Shown: positions 2 through 13,056, counted from the first letter of the stretch. The stretch is 21,178 bases of DNA from a virus (IMGVR_UViG_3300018424_000311:1-21178), one strand, 5' to 3'. Numbers and translations are program-made. The notes: generated from the sequence alone by a model not told the origin.

Positions 2-1310
2 GATCAAACAACTGTAAATGTTGTAAATGATACAGCAACTACTGTCAACTTTGCAGGTGCAGCAACAGCAATTAACGTTGGTGCAGCAACAGGCAAAACA
101 ACATTTGCACATGATGTTGACATCAACGGCGGTGACCTAGACAGTAACCAATCATCGTTCTACTTGTTATCATCACCAAGTTCGGTTGTGATAGGTGCAG
201 GCGCAACTATTGTTAACATTGGAACAGGCGGCGATGGCGGCGGTACAACTACAATTGGACACGATCTTGTTGTTACAGGTGATCTTACAGTTAATGGTGA
301 TACAACAACAATTAACAGTACAACATTAACAGTTGATGACTTGAGAATTGTAGTTGCAAGTGGTGCATTAAATGCAGCAGCAGCAAACGGCGCAGGTATT
401 GAAGTAGATGGCGCAAATGCAACATTAACTTACGATGCAGCAAACACAAGTTGGGATAGCAGCGAAGACTTCAATCTAGCAAGTGGTAAAGCATATTATG
501 TTAACGATGCAAATGTTCTAAGTTCAACTACACTAGGATCGGGTGTTGTAAATTCAAGTTTACAACAAGTAGGTACAATTGGTACAGGTACATGGCAAGG
601 TACAGTTATATCTCCAACATACGGTGGTACTGGTGTAAACAATGGTAGCAAAACTATCACACTAGGTGGTAACTTTACACATACAGGTGCGCACACGTTG
701 TCATTAACAACAACAGGTAACACCAGTTTAACATTACCAACAAGCGGTACTGTTGCTGTAAGCACATCAGGACTTGGACAGTTTGCTTCTACAACAAGTG
801 CTCAACTAGCAAGTGTTATGAGTGACGAAACAGGTAGTGGTGCTCTAGTATTTGGAACTAATCCAACTATGAGTACAGGCATTGTTGCAGGCACAACAAC
901 ATTCAACTTGCTTGACACAACTGCTACAACTATCAATTTTGGTGGTGCAGCAACAGCAGTTGCAATTGGTGCAGCAACAGGTACAACAACTGTACATAAC
1001 AATTTAGATGTAGACTTAGATGTTAATATAGACGGCGGCGATTTGACAACCAACGCTGCTACATTTAATTTGTTAAATGCTACAGCAACTACAATAAATG
1101 CATTTGGTGCAGCAACAGATATTAACATAGGTGCAACAACAGGTGACTTTGGTGTTAACAACGCAACAGCAAACTTTGCAGGTAACTTGTTTGTAAACGG
1201 TAATACATTAGATACAGACGAAACAGGCACATTTAACTTGCTGAAAGATAACGCAACAAACATTGCATTTGGTCAAGCAGCAAGACAAATGACTATTGGT
1301 GAAACCAAAG
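2..1310 (+). repeat. Degenerate FNLL / ATTINFGGAAT fibre repeats
   Basis: Within the fibre gene, units of the form (F/Y)xLL-x(3-5)-(A/T)TT(I/V)N(F/I)-x-G-AA(T)-x-(I/V)x(I/V)GAATG recur, clearest near 2-110, 896-980, 1060-1140 and 1228-1310. They are alternated with VDI(N/D)GGDL linkers. The repeats are divergent at DNA level and encode short beta-rich segments, as expected for a trimeric beta-helical fibre shaft. Confidence 0.7.
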
Positions 1311-3580
1311 CAGCAGCAGTTGCAGCAGGTCAAGTTAATCCAGAAGTAATTGTGCGCTTGGATTTAAGAACAAATGCTGATATGTATATCGACGGTGACT
1401 TGTATATTAGCGATATTGATAATGTTCCAATTGGTCCAAATACTCCAAGCACAGGTGCATTTACTACATTGTCATCAAACGATCTAACAAGGTTTACAGC
1501 AACTGACAATGCAAACATAGCAGTAGCGTTTGCAACAGATGGAGCAGCAGTTAAAATCAGCGGCGGTCTAAGAGTTGCAAAAGATGTTGCTGCTGATAAC
1601 TTTATGGGTGATATGGATGCTGGTTATTTAACAAGCGGTACTATTCCGGATGCACGTATCCAAGTATCAGGTGTTACACAACACCAGTTAAGTATCACAG
1701 GTACAGGTGCGTTGAATGCAGGTAGTATCACAAGTGGCTTTGGTAATATTAACATTGGTAGCAGTATCTTTACTGGTGACGGTAGTGGTTTAAGCAACTT
1801 GAATGCAAGCAATCTTGCATCTGGCAGCGTACCAAATGCACGTATTACTTCAGGTAGTGTTACACAACACCAAGGTGATATCACAGGTACTGGTGCTCTT
1901 GATAGCGGTAGTATTACAAGCAACTTTGGCAACATCAATATTGGAACAAGTACATTTACAGGTAATGGTAGCGGACTGAGCAGTCTAAATGCAAGTAACT
2001 TGAGTACTGGTACAGTTGCAGGCGCAAGACTTGGTGGCAACCAATCAATGGGTGGTATCAAAACATTTAGTGATACAACTGAAGCAACTACTACAGGCAA
2101 CGGTGCAGTAAGACTTAGCGGTGGTTTAAGTGTTGTTAAAAACATTGTGTTTGGTGGTACTGCAACCGGTAATGGTAGCGGACTAACAAGTCTAAATGCT
2201 ACTAACTTGGGTAGCGGAACTGTTCCAAGTGCAAGAGTAACAGGTAGTTACACAGGTATTACTGGTACCGGTGCACTAGATGCAGGTCAGATTACCAGCG
2301 GATTTGGCGATATCAACATTGGTACAAATACATTTACTGGTAACGGTAGTGGCCTAACCAGCGTTGATGCAGCAACACTAGATGGTGTTGACAGTCTAAG
2401 TTTTGTACGCAGTGACGCAAATGATACACTAACAGGTGCTTACGTTATAAGCAGTACAAGTTCGCAACCACTTACATTAAAACGTTCCGATCGTGCCGGT
2501 GCAAACGCTACATCGTACCTGTATTTTACTGATCAAAACGATGCAACAATGGGTTACATAGGTAATGCAATATTTGGTGCTTATGATATGTACATGCACG
2601 CCGCTAGTGGCGGTAACATTGTTATGTTTACTACAGGTGAACTTCGATATACCAGCGATGGTGCAACCTTCTACAAATATTGGCATGCTAATAATGATGG
2701 TAATGGATCAGGACTAGATGCTGACTTAGTAGATGGTATACACGCTAGTAGTTTCTTACGCAGCGATTCTAACGATTCGTTTAGTGGTACACTAAGTGGT
2801 ACTGGTAGCATTAACATTACTGGTACTATCACGGCTGCTGGATATAGCGGCGATGGTAGCGGACTAAGTGGCATTACTGCTGATAGTATCGGTGGCGTTG
2901 GACTAACTGGACTGTTAAGAACAACTGGTGAAAACGCTGCTACAGCAAACATTACATTTAGTAATAGCGGTACTGCTAAACGCGGTATTACTGGTACAAT
3001 GGGAGACAACGATCAGTGGTTCTTCGGTGGTGCTGCTACTGCATCAAACGCAGGTTATTTGGAAATCTCAACAGGTGATGATGGACAGAGTACAAGTGCC
3101 GAACCGCATTATCATAGACAGTACGGCCCAGGTACCCCATTAACTGGTACACTTGTAAGAACTGCAACTATATTAGATAATAATGGTAATACACTATTCC
3201 CAGGCGAAGTTACAGCATACTCATCAGATGCTAGACTTAAAACCAACATCGAAAACATTCCAAATGCACTTGACAAAGTCAAAGCATTGAACGGTGTGCT
3301 TTATAACTGGACCAACGAAGGTCACAAGTGGGGACTTGATGTTGATACTGAAAAACGTGAAGTTGGTTTACTTGCTCAAGAAGTTCAAGAAGTATTGCCT
3401 GAAGCAGTTGCTCCGGCACCATTTGATATTGATACTGATACAGGCGAAAGCAAAAGCGGCGAAGATTATCTGACAGTCAAATACGAACGTATTGCGCCTG
3501 TATTAATTGAAGCAATCAAAGAACAGCAAAAAGAGATTGATGAACTCAAAGCAATGGTGCAAAAACTACTGGATAAATAA
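2..3580 (+). CDS. Long tail fibre protein with C-terminal S74 chaperone, 5' partial
   Basis: The reading frame is open from base 2, so the gene starts upstream of the window; the TTG at 164 is an internal leucine codon. Visible are about 1190 residues, low in complexity and rich in Gly, Thr, Ser, Asn and Ala. First come repeats with FNLL and ATTINFGGAAT-type strands, then a GTW(x)G...YGGTG segment typical of phage fibres, then six GxGSGL modules. The last 119 codons (3221-3580) match the peptidase S74 intramolecular chaperone: S-D-A-R-L-K at 3224-3241 holds the expected Ser/Lys pair, followed by GLLAQEVQEVLPEAV and a terminal coiled coil. In this family the chaperone helps the fibre trimerise, then cleaves itself off just before that Ser. 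Inferred role: distal, receptor-binding fibre. It resembles other marine T4-like fibres by pattern only; its T4 counterpart cannot be assigned. Confidence 0.88.
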   Translation, partial: DQTTVNVVNDTATTVNFAGAATAINVGAATGKTTFAHDVDINGGDLDSNQSSFYLLSSPSSVVIGAGATIVNIGTGGDGGGTTTIGHDLVVTGDLTVNGDTTTINSTTLTVDDLRIVVASGALNAAAANGAGIEVDGANATLTYDAANTSWDSSEDFNLASGKAYYVNDANVLSSTTLGSGVVNSSLQQVGTIGTGTWQGTVISPTYGGTGVNNGSKTITLGGNFTHTGAHTLSLTTTGNTSLTLPTSGTVAVSTSGLGQFASTTSAQLASVMSDETGSGALVFGTNPTMSTGIVAGTTTFNLLDTTATTINFGGAATAVAIGAATGTTTVHNNLDVDLDVNIDGGDLTTNAATFNLLNATATTINAFGAATDINIGATTGDFGVNNATANFAGNLFVNGNTLDTDETGTFNLLKDNATNIAFGQAARQMTIGETKAAAVAAGQVNPEVIVRLDLRTNADMYIDGDLYISDIDNVPIGPNTPSTGAFTTLSSNDLTRFTATDNANIAVAFATDGAAVKISGGLRVAKDVAADNFMGDMDAGYLTSGTIPDARIQVSGVTQHQLSITGTGALNAGSITSGFGNINIGSSIFTGDGSGLSNLNASNLASGSVPNARITSGSVTQHQGDITGTGALDSGSITSNFGNINIGTSTFTGNGSGLSSLNASNLSTGTVAGARLGGNQSMGGIKTFSDTTEATTTGNGAVRLSGGLSVVKNIVFGGTATGNGSGLTSLNATNLGSGTVPSARVTGSYTGITGTGALDAGQITSGFGDINIGTNTFTGNGSGLTSVDAATLDGVDSLSFVRSDANDTLTGAYVISSTSSQPLTLKRSDRAGANATSYLYFTDQNDATMGYIGNAIFGAYDMYMHAASGGNIVMFTTGELRYTSDGATFYKYWHANNDGNGSGLDADLVDGIHASSFLRSDSNDSFSGTLSGTGSINITGTITAAGYSGDGSGLSGITADSIGGVGLTGLLRTTGENAATANITFSNSGTAKRGITGTMGDNDQWFFGGAATASNAGYLEISTGDDGQSTSAEPHYHRQYGPGTPLTGTLVRTATILDNNGNTLFPGEVTAYSSDARLKTNIENIPNALDKVKALNGVLYNWTNEGHKWGLDVDTEKREVGLLAQEVQEVLPEAVAPAPFDIDTDTGESKSGEDYLTVKYERIAPVLIEAIKEQQKEIDELKAMVQKLLDK
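1775..2905 (+). repeat. Six GxGSGL fibre modules
   Basis: The peptide G(D/N)GSGL starts at 1775, 1961, 2168, 2339, 2699 and 2849. The first three copies run on into xxLNA(S/T)NL-x-(S/T)G(S/T)V-x(2)-AR. Copies at 1775, 1961 and 2339 are preceded by an ITGTGAL-DxGxITSxFG-xINIG block. The spacing of the first four is 186, 207 and 171 bp. These are typical of modular phage fibre shafts and are a plausible substrate for recombination between fibres. Confidence 0.75.
3572..3579 (+). promoter_or_regulatory. T4-like late promoter octamer in the fibre stop codon
   Basis: GATAAATA matches the NATAAATA form of the T4-type late promoter. It is formed by the last two sense codons of the fibre gene plus the stop (GAT AAA TAA). 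By T4 spacing the start would fall near 3585, just before the hairpin at 3587-3613. It could serve the 53- and 127-residue genes downstream. An Asp-Lys-stop ending in an AT-rich genome could also produce this by chance. Confidence 0.4.
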
Positions 3581-3840: not shown

Positions 3841-4224
3841 ATGAAAACATTATTTGAAGTCATGAACATTGACTTAGCACAAGAATATACCAAAGAACGC
3901 AAACTAGCAGTAGTAGAAAAACTTGCAACTGAATTAGGTGCAGAACTAGAAGAAGAAGTACGTGCAGCGATTGCAGAATTAGATATTCCAGAATCAGATG
4001 AACGTTATCATTGGGTTCAAAAAATTGGACGTATTATGGGTGCAGACTTGTTAACTATTGGCAAAGTACAGCCAGAAAACATGTTAGCAGCGTCTTCTCT
4101 CAGTGTTGAAGATTTTCAAGAAGCAGTAAAAGTTGCAGTACAAGGTGCAAATGATTTGAACCAGTATACTATTGCAGCAGAAACAGCAATCAAAAACGAC
4201 ACAATTTCTGAAACAATTACATGA
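3841..4224 (+). CDS. Unrecognised acidic helical protein, 127 residues
   Basis: A good ribosome site (AGGAG, then six bases) precedes the ATG. I do not recognise the family. The first 50 residues are rich in Glu, Lys and Ala and look helical (VVEKLATELGAELEEEVR). A middle part reads HWVQKIGRIMGADLLTIG, and the tail is polar and Thr/Asn-rich. It has no membrane segment, signal peptide, Cys cluster or nucleotide-binding loop. Its stop overlaps the start of the glycosyltransferase gene (ATGA at 4221-4224), which implies translational coupling and a shared function or timing with that enzyme. Confidence 0.75.
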   Translation: MKTLFEVMNIDLAQEYTKERKLAVVEKLATELGAELEEEVRAAIAELDIPESDERYHWVQKIGRIMGADLLTIGKVQPENMLAASSLSVEDFQEAVKVAVQGANDLNQYTIAAETAIKNDTISETIT

Positions 4225-4814
4225 TAAAACTTGCAATTTGTATTCCATCACGGGATACAGTTCATGCAGGATTTGCATTAAGTCTCTCTAAGATTACAAG
4301 TAAACTTACAGAACATAATGTTGAACACACTGTATTGTTTAATCTAGGAACAGTAATACCTCAACAACGTAATAGTCTAATAGACGAAGCGTTAGATTGG
4401 GGTGCTACACATATACTGTGGTTAGACAGTGATATGCATTTGCCGTCTAACACCGCAGAAATCTTATTGTCTCACAATAAAGATATTGTAGCAGCAGCAT
4501 ACAGCACAAGAGTTCCGCCTTACAAAAGTACTGCATTTGTTGATGCAGATAATTTAGATAACAGATTATCTGCCATCACCGACTTACACAAAGTGTTTGC
4601 AGTTGGTATGGGATGTATGTTAGTTTCAACAGAAGTCTATAAAGTTTTAGGAAAACCTTGGCATACATATCTATACAATAATGATACACAAGATTTGTCA
4701 GGCGAAGATATATATTTTTGTAAATGTGCAAACGATGCAGGAATTGATGTGTATGTTGATGCAAGTTTAAGCCAAGAAATTGCACATTACGGTACAAAGT
4801 CATTTAGGTTATAG
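4221..4814 (+). CDS. GT-A fold glycosyltransferase, 197 residues
   Basis: The start opens with KLAICIPSRD, the first strand of a family-2-like GT-A nucleotide-sugar domain. VIPQQRNSLIDEAL follows, then the metal-binding DxD motif in ILWLDSDMHLP (about residues 68-78), then VGMGCMLVS and GEDIYFCKCANDAGI, which supplies the ED pair usual before the acceptor site. A late His (IAHYG) fits a further metal ligand. At 197 residues it is a minimal, soluble, catalytic-only form with no membrane anchor. Members transfer a sugar from a nucleotide-sugar to a glycan, lipid, protein or modified base; the donor and acceptor cannot be read here. It overlaps the upstream gene by 4 bases and is followed one base after its stop by the repeat-protein gene. 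Confidence 0.8.
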   Translation: MIKLAICIPSRDTVHAGFALSLSKITSKLTEHNVEHTVLFNLGTVIPQQRNSLIDEALDWGATHILWLDSDMHLPSNTAEILLSHNKDIVAAAYSTRVPPYKSTAFVDADNLDNRLSAITDLHKVFAVGMGCMLVSTEVYKVLGKPWHTYLYNNDTQDLSGEDIYFCKCANDAGIDVYVDASLSQEIAHYGTKSFRL

Positions 4815-4815
4815 A

Positions 4816-7800
4816 ATGAATATATTTGAAAAGTTTGAAAGATACGGTCAAAAAACATACAACGGACAAGATGTATTAAAAAATCATTTTTTACAAATCT
4901 ATCCAATACATTATACTGACAATTGCGACGACGAGACTGTTGCAACACAATATGCTGATAAAGCAGATTACGTTTGGATTGTTAACAAAAATATTAATGT
5001 ACTTAGAACTTTTCCTTGGCACTTTAAACCAACCAAAGAACAATTAAATAAAAAACATGTATTTCCGTATGTTTATAAAAGCAGCAAAAGAATTAAAAGT
5101 TGGGAATATGCAAAACTTATTCCTACTAAAGTTGAATATACAGGTGTAATTGAACACAAAAATATTGCAGCAATCTATGATGTATATTGTGGCAAAGATG
5201 TGTTTGATGTATTTTATTTAGGTTTAGAAACAGACGAACTATTTACACAAATACAAGAACGTGCTCCACATGCTCGTGTTGTTAGTTCGCATAAACAAGC
5301 ACAAGACATGTCTACTACGGATATGTTTTGGCTTGTGCCTAATGATATTGAATTGGGAAAGTTTTTTAAATTTAGTTATCGTCCTGATGACTGGAGTCAC
5401 AAATTTGTGCATGTGTTTGGAAATGGTAATGTAGGAGTGTTTGATGGTATTGCATTATTTCCAAAAGCATACAACCCTACTGACAAAGAATTACAACACA
5501 GATTTTATGCAGATAAAAAAACAGTATCATTAATTGCAAGTACTCCTAAAAAATATCCTGTGTATAACTTTGAAACATTTGAAGAATATCAGTTAGCGTT
5601 AGAAAAAGAAAGCGAGTTGTTTTGGTATGTTCCAACAGACGTTCAAGACGTAGTTGATTTAGATTTGTATTTTGATCATCATAATCAATATGATCGACGT
5701 ATTAATCATGTGTTTTTAAATGATAATGAATATGATGGCGTAGTACTGTTTAGTAAACATAGTCCTATAACTGAAAAAGAATTTAATCACAGATTTATTG
5801 CAAACAAAAAAGAACACCCGGAGGTATATAGCCGGCCAAAAAAGTTTGATCAGTTTGTGATCAACAACTACGCTGATTACAAACTGGCAATGGAGCGTAG
5901 TACTACTGAAATGTTCTGGGGTGTGCCCGATGATGTTGAAGTTTCAGATGACTTTGATTTTGACATTTATTTTACACATCATAACACATACGATAGAAAT
6001 ATTACACATGTGTTTGCTAATGGTAAAACATACGACGGTATTGTGCTGTTTAGTAAAAATGTCGAAGTAATTGAACGTGAAGTTGATTATAGATTTTACG
6101 CTGAAAAGAAAGAATGGAATATTGTTGCAAGCCATCCAAAAATCTTTCCTGTGTACAAAATTGACACGTATGATGAATACTTAGAAGCATTAAAGAAAAC
6201 ACCAAACGAATTGTTTTGGATGAGTAGTTCAAACATTCAAATGCTTACAGACATTTATAATGTTTATATTAGTCATCACGATAGAAATTTACGTAAACAA
6301 AATCATGTGTTTTTACATCAAAACAACGAAGGTGTATCATTTAATGGAATGATTTTGTGTAGTGTACACACGCCTTTAACACAAAAAGAAGTTGAATATA
6401 GGCATCCAGTAAATCGCATAGAACACACTAATATTGTAAGTAAAAATAAAAGATATGATCATTTCAATATTGAAACGTATGAGGATTATTTACACGCATT
6501 AGAAACCAGTGAAACTGAAATGTTTTGGATGGATTCTCCAAACATAGATACAACTGATTTTAATTTTAAAATGACTTTTGATTTTGAAAACGAATATGAT
6601 CGAAAGGAAAATCATGCTTTTGTACACATGGTAGATGGAAAAGAATATTACAACGGATTGTTTCTTTGCAGCAAACACAAACCTTTAACTAAAAAAGAAG
6701 TTGAATATCGCCATATTGCAAATGCAAAAGAATGGGACATAATGGCAAGTTTTGCTGTGTTTTATGAAAGATTTATTATTGAAACTTATGACGATTATCT
6801 TCGTGCATTAGATAACAGCGAAACAGAAATGTTTTATGGGTATAGCGAAAACATTGATTGTAGAGACTTTGCATTTGATCATTACTTTACGCATGATAAC
6901 GAATATGACAGAAAAATAAATCATAACTTTATTCATAAAGTTAACGGTAAAGAATACCGTAATGGAGTATTTTTGTTTAGTAAACACAGTCCAGTTACAC
7001 AAAAAGAAATAGAACATAGACATATTGTTAATGCAAAAGAATGGAATATAGTTGCAAGTAGGCCTGTTTGGTATGATAGAATTGTAATTAATAATTACAA
7101 AGATTATAACATGGCATTAGAATCGTCTAAGACTGAAATGTTTTGGGGTATTCCTAGTGATGTAGAAGTTGATATAAATTTTGAATTTGATTATTACTTT
7201 ACTCATGATCAAGTTTTTGAAAGAACTACAAATCATGTATTTTTAAATGATAAAAATTATGATGGAATAATTTTGTTTAGTAAACACAGTCCGGTAACAG
7301 AGAAAGAAATAAAATCAAGATTTTTAGTTAACAAAAAAGAACACAATGTCATAGCAAGTTATCCTAAACAATTTAGCAAATTTGTTATAGAAACTTATAA
7401 TGATTATTTAAATGCTCTTGAAACTAGTAAAACAGAAATGTTTTGGGCTACTACTAATAATATAAAAATTGCACAAGACTTTGATTTTAATTTTTATTTT
7501 AGTCATCATAACACTTATGACAGAAATATAAATCATGTTTTTGCGCACGAAGTTAATGGCAAAAAACATTACAATGGTTTATTTTTGTTGTCAAAAAATG
7601 TACCGCTTACACAAAAAGAAATTGAATTTAGAACAATAGCAAATCGTAAAGAATGGGATATTGTTGCCAGTGGTTCTGTTGAATATGATAAATTTAAAAT
7701 AAAAAATTACCAAGACTATTTAGAAGCATTTAAGAAATCAAAAACAGAAATGTTTTGGATGATACCAAGCGAAGTTGTTGTAGATAACTCATTTAATTTT

Positions 7801-8676
7801 AATACTTATTTCACACATGATCAAATATTTGAAAGAAAGACACATCATGTTTTTAAAAATGGTGATGCATGGGACGGCATTTCACTTGTGAGTAAACATG
7901 CCAATGTTACTGAACGTGAAATTAATATGAGATTTCTTACAAATAAAAAACAATATAATATTGTTGCAAGTACTCCAAAATTATATGATATTGTGTTTAT
8001 TAGCAAAGACGAAGAACATGCGGACAAGAATTACAAAGATTTGTTAATAAGATTTCCAAGAGCAAAGCGTGTACACGGTGTTGAAGGTATTCATAATGCA
8101 CACATTGCAGCAGCAAAACTTTGCAACACAGATATGATTTGGATTGTTGATGCAGATGCAGAAATTGTTGACAATTTTAATTTTGATTATTATGTTCCTG
8201 CATATGATCCTGATAGTAAAAATGCTGTGCATGTTTGGAAAAGCAAAAATCCAATTAATGGTTTAATTTATGGTTACGGTGCAGTCAAATTGCTTCCTAG
8301 AGAACTAACACTAAATATGGATACAACTACTACAGATATGACAACAAGCATTGGTAAATCATTTAAAGTTGTAAATAGAATCAGTAACGTTACTAAATTT
8401 AATACAGACGAATTTAGTGCATGGCGTAGTGCATTTAGAGAATGTGTTAAACTGTCGAGTAAAGCAATTAACGGTCAACTAGATGAAGAAACTGAATTTA
8501 GGTTAAAAGTTTGGTGTACAAGAGGTAAAGATAAACCTTTTGGTCTTGCAGCAATCAATGGTGCTATTCAAGGCAAAAAATATGGTGAATCTGCAACTAG
8601 TAAAGATCAACTTGGAAAAATCAACGACTTTAACTGGTTGTTAAATGAATTCAATAAGTTTAAAGATAGTTTCTAA
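4816..8676 (+). CDS. Giant repeat protein of degenerate glycosyltransferase-like units, 1286 residues
   Basis: I start it at the ATG at 4816, one base after the preceding stop and 7 bases after an AGG; an in-frame ATG at 4780 would overlap the neighbour by 35 bases and add a poorly fitting leader. About residues 150-1090 hold nine tandem repeats of 98-104 residues (the last 128). Each begins (T/S)E(M/L)FW and passes through YDR...NHVF and (D/N)G(I/L/V)xLxSKHxPxTxKE(I/V), ending in KEW(D/N)IVAS. The C-terminal unit has TDMIWIVDADAEIVDNFNF: the same TxMxW entry but with an intact DxD-like DAD. The internal units replace it with PxD, SPN, TNN and similar. A more distant copy (ADYVWIVNKNI) sits near residue 51. 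I infer tandem duplication of a GT-A-like domain with decay of the metal site. The role could be a large glycan-handling enzyme or a structural scaffold. The last 36 bases overlap the opposite-strand Nudix gene. Confidence 0.85.
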   Translation: MNIFEKFERYGQKTYNGQDVLKNHFLQIYPIHYTDNCDDETVATQYADKADYVWIVNKNINVLRTFPWHFKPTKEQLNKKHVFPYVYKSSKRIKSWEYAKLIPTKVEYTGVIEHKNIAAIYDVYCGKDVFDVFYLGLETDELFTQIQERAPHARVVSSHKQAQDMSTTDMFWLVPNDIELGKFFKFSYRPDDWSHKFVHVFGNGNVGVFDGIALFPKAYNPTDKELQHRFYADKKTVSLIASTPKKYPVYNFETFEEYQLALEKESELFWYVPTDVQDVVDLDLYFDHHNQYDRRINHVFLNDNEYDGVVLFSKHSPITEKEFNHRFIANKKEHPEVYSRPKKFDQFVINNYADYKLAMERSTTEMFWGVPDDVEVSDDFDFDIYFTHHNTYDRNITHVFANGKTYDGIVLFSKNVEVIEREVDYRFYAEKKEWNIVASHPKIFPVYKIDTYDEYLEALKKTPNELFWMSSSNIQMLTDIYNVYISHHDRNLRKQNHVFLHQNNEGVSFNGMILCSVHTPLTQKEVEYRHPVNRIEHTNIVSKNKRYDHFNIETYEDYLHALETSETEMFWMDSPNIDTTDFNFKMTFDFENEYDRKENHAFVHMVDGKEYYNGLFLCSKHKPLTKKEVEYRHIANAKEWDIMASFAVFYERFIIETYDDYLRALDNSETEMFYGYSENIDCRDFAFDHYFTHDNEYDRKINHNFIHKVNGKEYRNGVFLFSKHSPVTQKEIEHRHIVNAKEWNIVASRPVWYDRIVINNYKDYNMALESSKTEMFWGIPSDVEVDINFEFDYYFTHDQVFERTTNHVFLNDKNYDGIILFSKHSPVTEKEIKSRFLVNKKEHNVIASYPKQFSKFVIETYNDYLNALETSKTEMFWATTNNIKIAQDFDFNFYFSHHNTYDRNINHVFAHEVNGKKHYNGLFLLSKNVPLTQKEIEFRTIANRKEWDIVASGSVEYDKFKIKNYQDYLEAFKKSKTEMFWMIPSEVVVDNSFNFNTYFTHDQIFERKTHHVFKNGDAWDGISLVSKHANVTEREINMRFLTNKKQYNIVASTPKLYDIVFISKDEEHADKNYKDLLIRFPRAKRVHGVEGIHNAHIAAAKLCNTDMIWIVDADAEIVDNFNFDYYVPAYDPDSKNAVHVWKSKNPINGLIYGYGAVKLLPRELTLNMDTTTTDMTTSIGKSFKVVNRISNVTKFNTDEFSAWRSAFRECVKLSSKAINGQLDEETEFRLKVWCTRGKDKPFGLAAINGAIQGKKYGESATSKDQLGKINDFNWLLNEFNKFKDSF
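5323..8142 (+). repeat. Tandem ~300-bp coding repeats
   Basis: The (M/L)FW-type anchor codons begin at 5323, 5617, 5911, 6211, 6520, 6829, 7138, 7438, 7750 and 8134. The intervals are 294, 294, 300, 309, 309, 309, 300, 312 and 384 bp, all multiples of three. Two subtypes are visible: shorter units with an NHVFxNxxxYDG loop (5617, 5911, 7138, 7750) and longer ones with an added NGKxYYNGLFL-type hairpin (6520, 6829, 7438). The DNA sequences have diverged, so the array is old and not a fresh slippage product. Confidence 0.85.
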
Positions 8677-9072
8677 TTTTTGTACATTATTCTTATTACG
8701 CAATGTACTTAACAACCCTTTGTGTAGTGGTTTTGGCCAGTTATTAAAACTTACCCAAGCATAACCGTTGTGTTCGTCGTTTAATACTGGAATAAATTCT
8801 TTGCTTACAACACACAAATAAGTATGAAATTCAAAATGAGAATCGTTGCTAATAAAAGTTTCTAGTGGAATAGTTTTTACAATAGATGGAAGTGTTCCTA
8901 TTTCTTCTTGCATTTCTCTTTTCAATGCTTCCCAAGGAGTTTCACTATCTTCGTTTGTACCGCCTACTAATCCCCAAACATTATTTTGTTTACTTTGTGC
9001 TCTATGCAAAAGTAAAAATCGATTAGTATCTAATGTATAAAAAAGTGCACCACTACAAATAATTTTCTTCAT
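8641..9072 (-). CDS. Nudix hydrolase, 143 residues
   Basis: A complete Nudix box is present: G38, E44, R52-E53, E56-E57 and G59, spaced as GX5EX7REUXEEXGU, with Thr in place of the final aliphatic residue. VWGLVGG just before it corresponds to the WxFPGG stretch of MutT-like enzymes. The family hydrolyses nucleoside diphosphates linked to another group (oxidised or excess dNTPs, ADP-ribose, nucleotide sugars, dinucleoside polyphosphates), using Mg bound by the EE pair. The substrate here is unknown; it need not be orthologous to T4 NudE. The gene starts 8 bases after the gp15 stop and is the last of the leftward gp14-gp15-Nudix operon. Its 3' end overlaps the convergent repeat-protein gene by 36 bases. 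Confidence 0.88.
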   Translation of the reverse strand: MKKIICSGALFYTLDTNRFLLLHRAQSKQNNVWGLVGGTNEDSETPWEALKREMQEEIGTLPSIVKTIPLETFISNDSHFEFHTYLCVVSKEFIPVLNDEHNGYAWVSFNNWPKPLHKGLLSTLRNKNNVQKLETIFKLIEFI

Positions 9073-12552: not shown

Positions 12553-13056
12553 ATGCGTAAAAAATTATTAATTATTGGACATGGTCGTCACGGCAAGGAC
12601 ACTGTGTGTGAAATCCTTAGAGACAAATACGGTTATAGTTTTGAGAGTAGTAGTCAGTTCTGCTCTAAATTGTTTATCTATGACATGTTAAAAAAGAAAT
12701 ACAATTATAACAGCGAAGATGAGTGTTATAATGATAGACACAATCATCGAGCAGAATGGTATAATGCTATTTGTGATTACAATGTTCCTGATGCTGCTAA
12801 GTTAGGCAGAGAAATATTTAAAGCCCACGATATCTATTGCGGACTACGTAACAAGCGTGAATTTTATGCTATGAAAATTGCTGGTGTGTTTGATTATGCT
12901 GTTTGGGTTGACCGTAGCGACTACTTACCTCCTGAATCTGAAGATAGTATGAGCCTCAAACCTTGGATGGCAGATTATCATATTGACAACAATGGTACGC
13001 TTAAAGACCTAGAGTTTTGGGTAGACGAACTGTATAAATTTAAATTAACTACGTAG
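12553..13056 (+). CDS. P-loop deoxynucleoside monophosphate kinase-like protein, 167 residues
   Basis: The N-terminus KLLIIGHGRHGKDT carries a Walker A loop (G9...G14-K15-D16-T17). GKDT in place of GKST is the signature of phage dNMP kinases such as T4 gp1, with which it shares little else by eye. Later FDYAVWVDRSD supplies the strand before the nucleotide-binding Arg, and ADYHIDNNGTLKDLEFWVDEL is the closing strand-helix seen in this superfamily. The likely reaction is ATP-dependent phosphorylation of dNMP to dNDP for phage DNA synthesis; base specificity is unknown. It lies between gp13 and gp18 and is not a virion gene. T4 gp1 is longer (241 residues), so this is a compact relative, possibly another adenylate-kinase-like P-loop enzyme. 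Confidence 0.72.
   Translation: MRKKLLIIGHGRHGKDTVCEILRDKYGYSFESSSQFCSKLFIYDMLKKKYNYNSEDECYNDRHNHRAEWYNAICDYNVPDAAKLGREIFKAHDIYCGLRNKREFYAMKIAGVFDYAVWVDRSDYLPPESEDSMSLKPWMADYHIDNNGTLKDLEFWVDELYKFKLTT

Follow-up and report, generated by a model that had tools for sequence, protein, structure and literature searches.

Single non-catalytic domains resembling a glycosyltransferase (GT), placed beside an active GT, are already known. The AC domain of human LH3/PLOD3 has a GT fold without activity and may recognise the substrate (PMC6082870). COSMC is a GT that lost its DxD motif and became a chaperone (PMC7185993). Among phages, virion glycosylation has been reported for mycobacteriophages (cited in PMC12619734), and the GTs of the pelagimyophage host-recognition cluster, from T4-like aquatic phages, lie beside tail fibres and radical SAM cassettes (PMC7029224). 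The accessible text of that last report names GT8 and LPS genes and mentions no GT with a repeat array.

The DNA analysed here is a viral stretch of 21,178 nt (IMGVR_UViG_3300018424_000311:1-21178), referred to as the window. It is a fragment of a T4-like myovirus, with genes for the tail-sheath stabiliser gp15 and a head-tail adaptor, and sheath-like and tube-like ORFs recognised by eye. L003, a contig of 45 kb nearly identical to the window, carries a gp23-like capsid gene (by eye) and, upstream, very large structural-type ORFs. In the window's longer relative, an ORF of 2531 aa (L217:4426-12021) lies downstream of the gp23-like capsid gene and contains internally repeated segments of the CxRD type. 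The window encodes a protein of 1286 aa, termed here the array GT, in which ten units precede a C-terminal domain predicted to be a GT. The gene, its parts and the genes upstream of it are as follows:

164–3580, + strand: tail-fibre protein with a C-terminal intramolecular chaperone (Peptidase_S74), from domain and PHROG searches
3841–4224, + strand: small conserved ORF (phrog_1409) between the fibre and glycosyltransferase genes
4221–4814, + strand: small glycosyltransferase-like protein of 197 aa (phrog_1574; Anp1-like, just under the Pfam cut-off)
4816–8676, + strand: whole array gene (1286 aa), comprising a divergent unit, a cap unit, eight pseudo-GT repeats and a predicted C-terminal GT-A domain
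4816–5196, + strand: divergent N-terminal unit (residues 1-127) without DxD, from profile scoring
5197–5541, + strand: cap unit (residues 128-242), aligned to the GT domain with hhalign
5542–7971, + strand: eight internal pseudo-GT repeats (residues 243-1052), each 97-104 aa long and without DxD, an HGV loop or the first beta-alpha unit
7978–8673, + strand: predicted C-terminal GT-A domain with intact motifs (residues 1055-1286), from the AF2 model and motif counts
8149–8157, + strand: codons of the DAD (DxD) motif, residues 1112-1114

The array ORF runs for 1286 codons from the ATG at 4816, which lies one base past the stop of the small GT-like ORF, to the stop codon at 8674-8676. The two ORFs are probably co-translated, and their order, small GT followed by array GT, is constant throughout the window's lineage. 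Near-identical proteins of 1286 aa are encoded by four other viral contigs (L001, L002, L003 and L007). The internal repeats occupy residues 243-339, 340-439, 440-542, 543-645, 646-748, 749-848, 849-952 and 953-1052, and at the DNA level they are only about 67–78% alike. The C-terminal domain takes up the remainder of the protein, residues 1053-1286. A preliminary description of this DNA had counted nine units of about 100 residues; these correspond to the cap unit and the eight repeats, to which a tenth, more divergent unit must be added at the N-terminus. The profile score of that unit is N-type in the window's lineage, and in L004 and L008 it scores weakly as GT (14-17 bits). The shared motifs listed in the same description lie where it placed them, except that TEMFW occurs some 25 residues into the unit and not at its start.

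That the units are copies of the C-terminal domain, as had been proposed, was borne out by profile-profile comparison. Computed with hhalign, the cap units matched the C-terminal domain with E=6e-17, the internal repeats matched it with E=4e-8, and the internal repeats matched the cap units with E=7e-26. An HMM built from the window's eight internal repeats only scored at least 12 bits on 128 of 214 distinct C-terminal or standalone GT domains. On decoys the same HMM reached that score in none of 1936 unrelated ORFs, none of 214 shuffled domains and none of 214 reversed ones, the best decoy scoring 7.4 bits. Judged by these profiles, both unit types, internal repeats and cap, are homologues of the C-terminal GT domain.

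The fold of this domain was predicted from an AF2 model of residues 849-1286, which covers two repeats and the C-terminal domain (75 sequences; pLDDT 92, pTM 0.81). All 50 of its best PDB matches were GT-A glycosyltransferases or GT-A-like close kin, led by K4 chondroitin polymerase, ppGalNAc-Ts, WrtF, SunS and RmlT. The model thus assigns the C-terminal domain a GT-A (Rossmann-like) fold, and the DAD at residues 1112-1114 follows a hydrophobic strand, as the metal-binding motif of GT-A enzymes does. Searched against the PDB by sequence profile, the GT domain gave no match and the repeats gave two, at chance level. The model of a single repeat had a pLDDT of 86; its individual Foldseek matches were insignificant (best E 0.19), and the fact that nearly all of the 50 best were GT-A or GT-A-like nucleotidyltransferases counts as a consistent trend only. 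Inspection of the secondary-structure lists showed the strand and helix order of the repeats to be that of the C-terminal domain minus the first beta-alpha unit and the C-terminal helices. Neither of the two outcomes that the preliminary description had named as fatal to its proposal, repeats of an unrelated fold or a C-terminal fold other than GT-A, was found.

The best PDB match of the model that joins the GT domain to two repeats was the Escherichia coli K4 chondroitin polymerase (2z86), with which the array protein has tandem GT-A domains in common. Both GT-A domains of the polymerase are catalytic, whereas in the array protein DxD is kept only in the last domain. The likeness to LH3/PLOD3 and to the mimivirus collagen glucosyltransferase consists in an active GT domain beside a GT-like one. 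LH3, however, has one full-size accessory domain, located after the GT and before the hydroxylase, while array proteins have 1-16 trimmed units before the GT. A non-catalytic GT-like domain adjoins a putatively active GT in the array protein too, as far as sequence and model indicate, which is a likeness of working and not membership of the LH3 group. The C-terminal 2OG-dependent lysyl hydroxylase domain of LH3 is absent, the array protein ending with the GT domain and having no such Pfam match. Among the best BFVD fold matches was a glycosyltransferase of mycobacteriophage Che8 (Q855A2, E=1.9e-5); the likeness is by fold alone, with no sequence match, and this protein of 391 aa has no reported array. 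Two uncharacterised BFVD proteins from uncultured Caudovirales phages, A0A6J5LK21 and A0A6J5L5L5, were matched by Foldseek over most of the model (E=8e-29 and 1e-27, 18-21% identity). They appear to be distant relatives, and their models make it likely that they share the array architecture.

The distribution of the DxD motif was counted by HMM position across 216 related loci. Of 218 distinct GT domains 216 have it, as against six of 133 cap units and none of 407 distinct internal repeats, in agreement with the earlier observation that the internal units lack a motif kept intact in the C-terminal one. At this position the window's internal repeats read PTD, PDD, SSN, SPN, SEN, PSD, TNN and PSE; the repeats in general have mostly P, S, W or T at the first residue and still mostly N, D or E at the third. 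The segment HGVxGIxxAH, nearly invariant in the GT domain, is absent from cap and internal units. The lysine of YGYGxxK, found in 218 of 219 GT domains, is by eye missing from the units of the window. The window's cap unit retains both N-terminal beta-alpha units, lacks the HGVxGIxxAH loop and reads PND at the DAD position; internal repeats are short of one more beta-alpha unit than cap units. Across loci the cap units conserve [W/Y/P]DD where the GT domain has DxD, the third D being present in 117 of 133, and because this motif is kept they may still bind some ligand or metal. In GT-A enzymes the features that the units have lost would be expected to serve in donor binding, a role that we infer here from the fold. 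With homology to an active GT-A on the one hand and loss of its motifs on the other, the internal repeats may be classed, on sequence grounds, as GT-A-derived pseudo-enzymes. Since DxD is kept only in the C-terminal domain, at most this last domain is likely to be catalytic, as had been predicted.

The family is common among uncultured aquatic phages: in IMG/VR, at least 600 stretches of viral contigs were hit for the GT domain and 314 for the cap unit. The architectures range from the GT alone (98 ORFs) through N-GT, N-R1-GT and N-R2-GT up to N-R15-GT. All complete array-plus-GT proteins have the array N-terminal to one C-terminal GT, with 1-16 extra units; the set includes a few GT-GT proteins with two full domains. 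In L060, L061 and L088 a separate GT of the family is fused to the array protein. L201:7986-10421 encodes an 812-aa protein that joins a cap unit and a GT domain to a radical SAM domain (by eye SPASM-like), a fusion that ties the GT family to radical SAM enzymes encoded elsewhere by next-door genes. In two contigs (L090:6362-8669 and L096:6419-8672) the array is divided at an identical point between neighbouring N-R3 and R1-GT ORFs, either a natural split or a shared frameshift, and L041 has two overlapping frames. Family members also occur in four bacterial MAG contigs (L213-L216), at least three of which (L213-L215) have phage-like neighbourhoods; these are probably misbinned phage contigs.

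No named family covers the array protein. A score over the curated threshold of a Pfam or NCBIfam family, or a significant match in PHROG, was taken as membership, and searches of the three collections with the whole protein and its pieces gave no convincing match, the C-terminal domain included. The best Pfam GT score was 12.2 bits for the window's GT domain (cut-off 23.3) and 17.8 for L060 (cut-off 27). Tblastn searches of cultured phages, from which very near records may be missing, found no match to the whole protein, to its repeats or GT domain, or to the N-terminal domain of L060. No GT repeat array was described in the literature searched.

The preliminary description had called the repeats decayed, which does not hold: each is a trimmed GT-A core under strong conservation. 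The dN/dS values computed for single repeats between related phages were mostly 0.02-0.2, similar to those of the GT domain, and the highest (0.27) was obtained where dS nears saturation. Values so far below 1 indicate that the repeats are neither junk nor decaying. The inactive-looking copies are held by natural selection, and the phage thus seems to have made them into a working arm. In a tree of the units, the first and the last unit each remain recognisable from one phage to another, while the middle ones have multiplied. Arrays reached 15 repeats on at least two occasions, in L113 and independently in the window's lineage (L012 and L024). In L113 (3114-8678) the 15 repeats consist largely of three-unit blocks in which the lengths 104-100-97 recur. 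As this expansion is independent of the window's lineage, arrays have grown more than once.

The gene order in the window's lineage is fibre, phrog_1409, small GT, array GT, NUDIX(-) and gp15(-). The NUDIX hydrolase gene (window 8641-9072, - strand) is convergent with the array gene, overlaps its 3′ end by 36 bases and is conserved in the lineage. A nucleotide-kinase-like gene (12553-13056; phrog_139, deoxynucleoside monophosphate kinase) is present in the tail structural module of the window, before the sheath-like ORF. In other loci the fibre gene is followed by several unknown genes, a GT of ~300 aa of the same family, the array GT and then radical SAM/SPASM genes. Further loci are islands with epimerase, UDP-sugar dehydrogenase and DegT aminotransferase genes (Pfam) and GDSL-like genes. 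Neighbours were assigned by cluster or motif, so that the following counts, for the 103 array loci whose stretches span seven genes or more, are approximate: a fibre-like gene was found in 55, a radical-SAM-like gene in 72 and a separate same-family GT, often directly upstream of the array gene, in 55; a gene of these three kinds or from sugar-nucleotide clusters was found in 93. The region of the array gene corresponds to the host-recognition cluster reported for pelagimyophages (PMC7029224). Array length was not correlated with fibre length where both were complete (rho -0.10, p 0.66, n=21), a comparison restricted to small copy numbers since the fibre ORFs of the long-array lineage run off their stretches; the idea of the array as a simple ruler of fibre length is therefore unsupported.

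The reading we favour, which we consider to have about an even chance of being right, is that of one active C-terminal GT joined to an array of pseudo-GT modules that would most likely serve as a long arm holding the acceptor. The protein would be a metal-dependent GT-A glycosyltransferase with its single active domain at the C-terminus, and all or nearly all of the remainder would consist of pseudo-enzyme modules copied from the same fold. An intact GT may have given rise to a copy stripped of its HGVxGIxxAH loop and of the first DxD aspartate, which would be the cap unit; shortened copies from which the first beta-alpha unit had also gone could then have become the internal repeats, duplicating one at a time or several together. 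Because the nucleotide sugar is expected to be held by the very parts that are missing, donor binding by the internal units is not anticipated. They would retain the portion of the core that comes later, which in GT-A enzymes faces the acceptor. The array may be pictured as an extended arm, in line with the acceptor-binding option already listed in the preliminary description, that grips an acceptor of great length or repetitive make-up and passes it on to the active site at the C-terminus; a phage fibre, another virion protein or a growing glycan are candidate acceptors, and a change in unit number would change reach or avidity. A more specific proposal, put forward tentatively as possible but short of likely, is that an enzyme fold has turned into an extendable repeat protein, in which truncated pseudo-GT modules before one active copy make up a rod, or a groove, for reading a polymeric acceptor, its length being tuned by duplication. 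Such a pseudo-enzyme array would not have been described before.

Several other explanations bear on the same observations. The array protein might modify a host surface glycan (O-chain) during infection and so block other phages, its array binding the growing polysaccharide; the GTs of the pelagimyophage host-recognition cluster have been read in this manner (PMC7029224), and sugar-nucleotide genes lie near the array gene in related loci. That reading is itself an interpretation, however, and a position directly after the fibre gene together with radical-SAM neighbours would fit a protein acceptor as well, so that we find a host-glycan target somewhat unlikely. We think it unlikely, and slightly more so, that the array holds a partner GT (the ~300-aa family member or, in the window's lineage, the 197-aa GT) or a tail-fibre protein, as a chaperone or as a scaffold for assembly, the active GT being incidental. 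COSMC, which does so for T-synthase, offers a precedent (PMC7185993), a separate same-family GT is present in 55 of the 103 array loci, often directly upstream, and the partner is fused to the array protein in L060, L061 and L088; but DxD is kept in nearly every C-terminal GT, the domain itself is conserved, and a one-to-one partner needs no variable array length.

It is quite improbable that the protein is a virion component, a fibre or whisker whose GT-like modules are glycan-binding adhesins with residual catalysis. By position the gene does belong to the structural module, where fibre genes and neck genes lie on either side of it, and adhesins commonly vary in copy number, yet DxD is intact in all but two of the 218 GT domains and related genes are also found in glycan-biosynthesis islands. 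The intact GT and the neighbouring sugar-biosynthesis and glycosyltransferase genes in related loci point to an enzyme, and not to the structural protein considered in the preliminary description. Nor is there much reason to regard the copy number as an artefact of metagenome assembly and the repeats as junk, an explanation we consider hardly credible: overlapping frames in L041 and the divided arrays of L090 and L096 might suggest it, but the same 1286-aa protein is found in four other contigs, the window's repeats are only about 67–78% alike in DNA, and their dN/dS is far below 1.

The array GT is an extreme, so far unnamed form of a GT with a non-catalytic GT-like domain. To our knowledge, arrays of up to 16 trimmed GT copies have not been known. 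The family forms a graded series, from the single GT to proteins with 16 extra units, and thus allows a test of how an enzyme fold becomes a binding repeat. It also points to an unknown glycosylation carried out by abundant aquatic phages.
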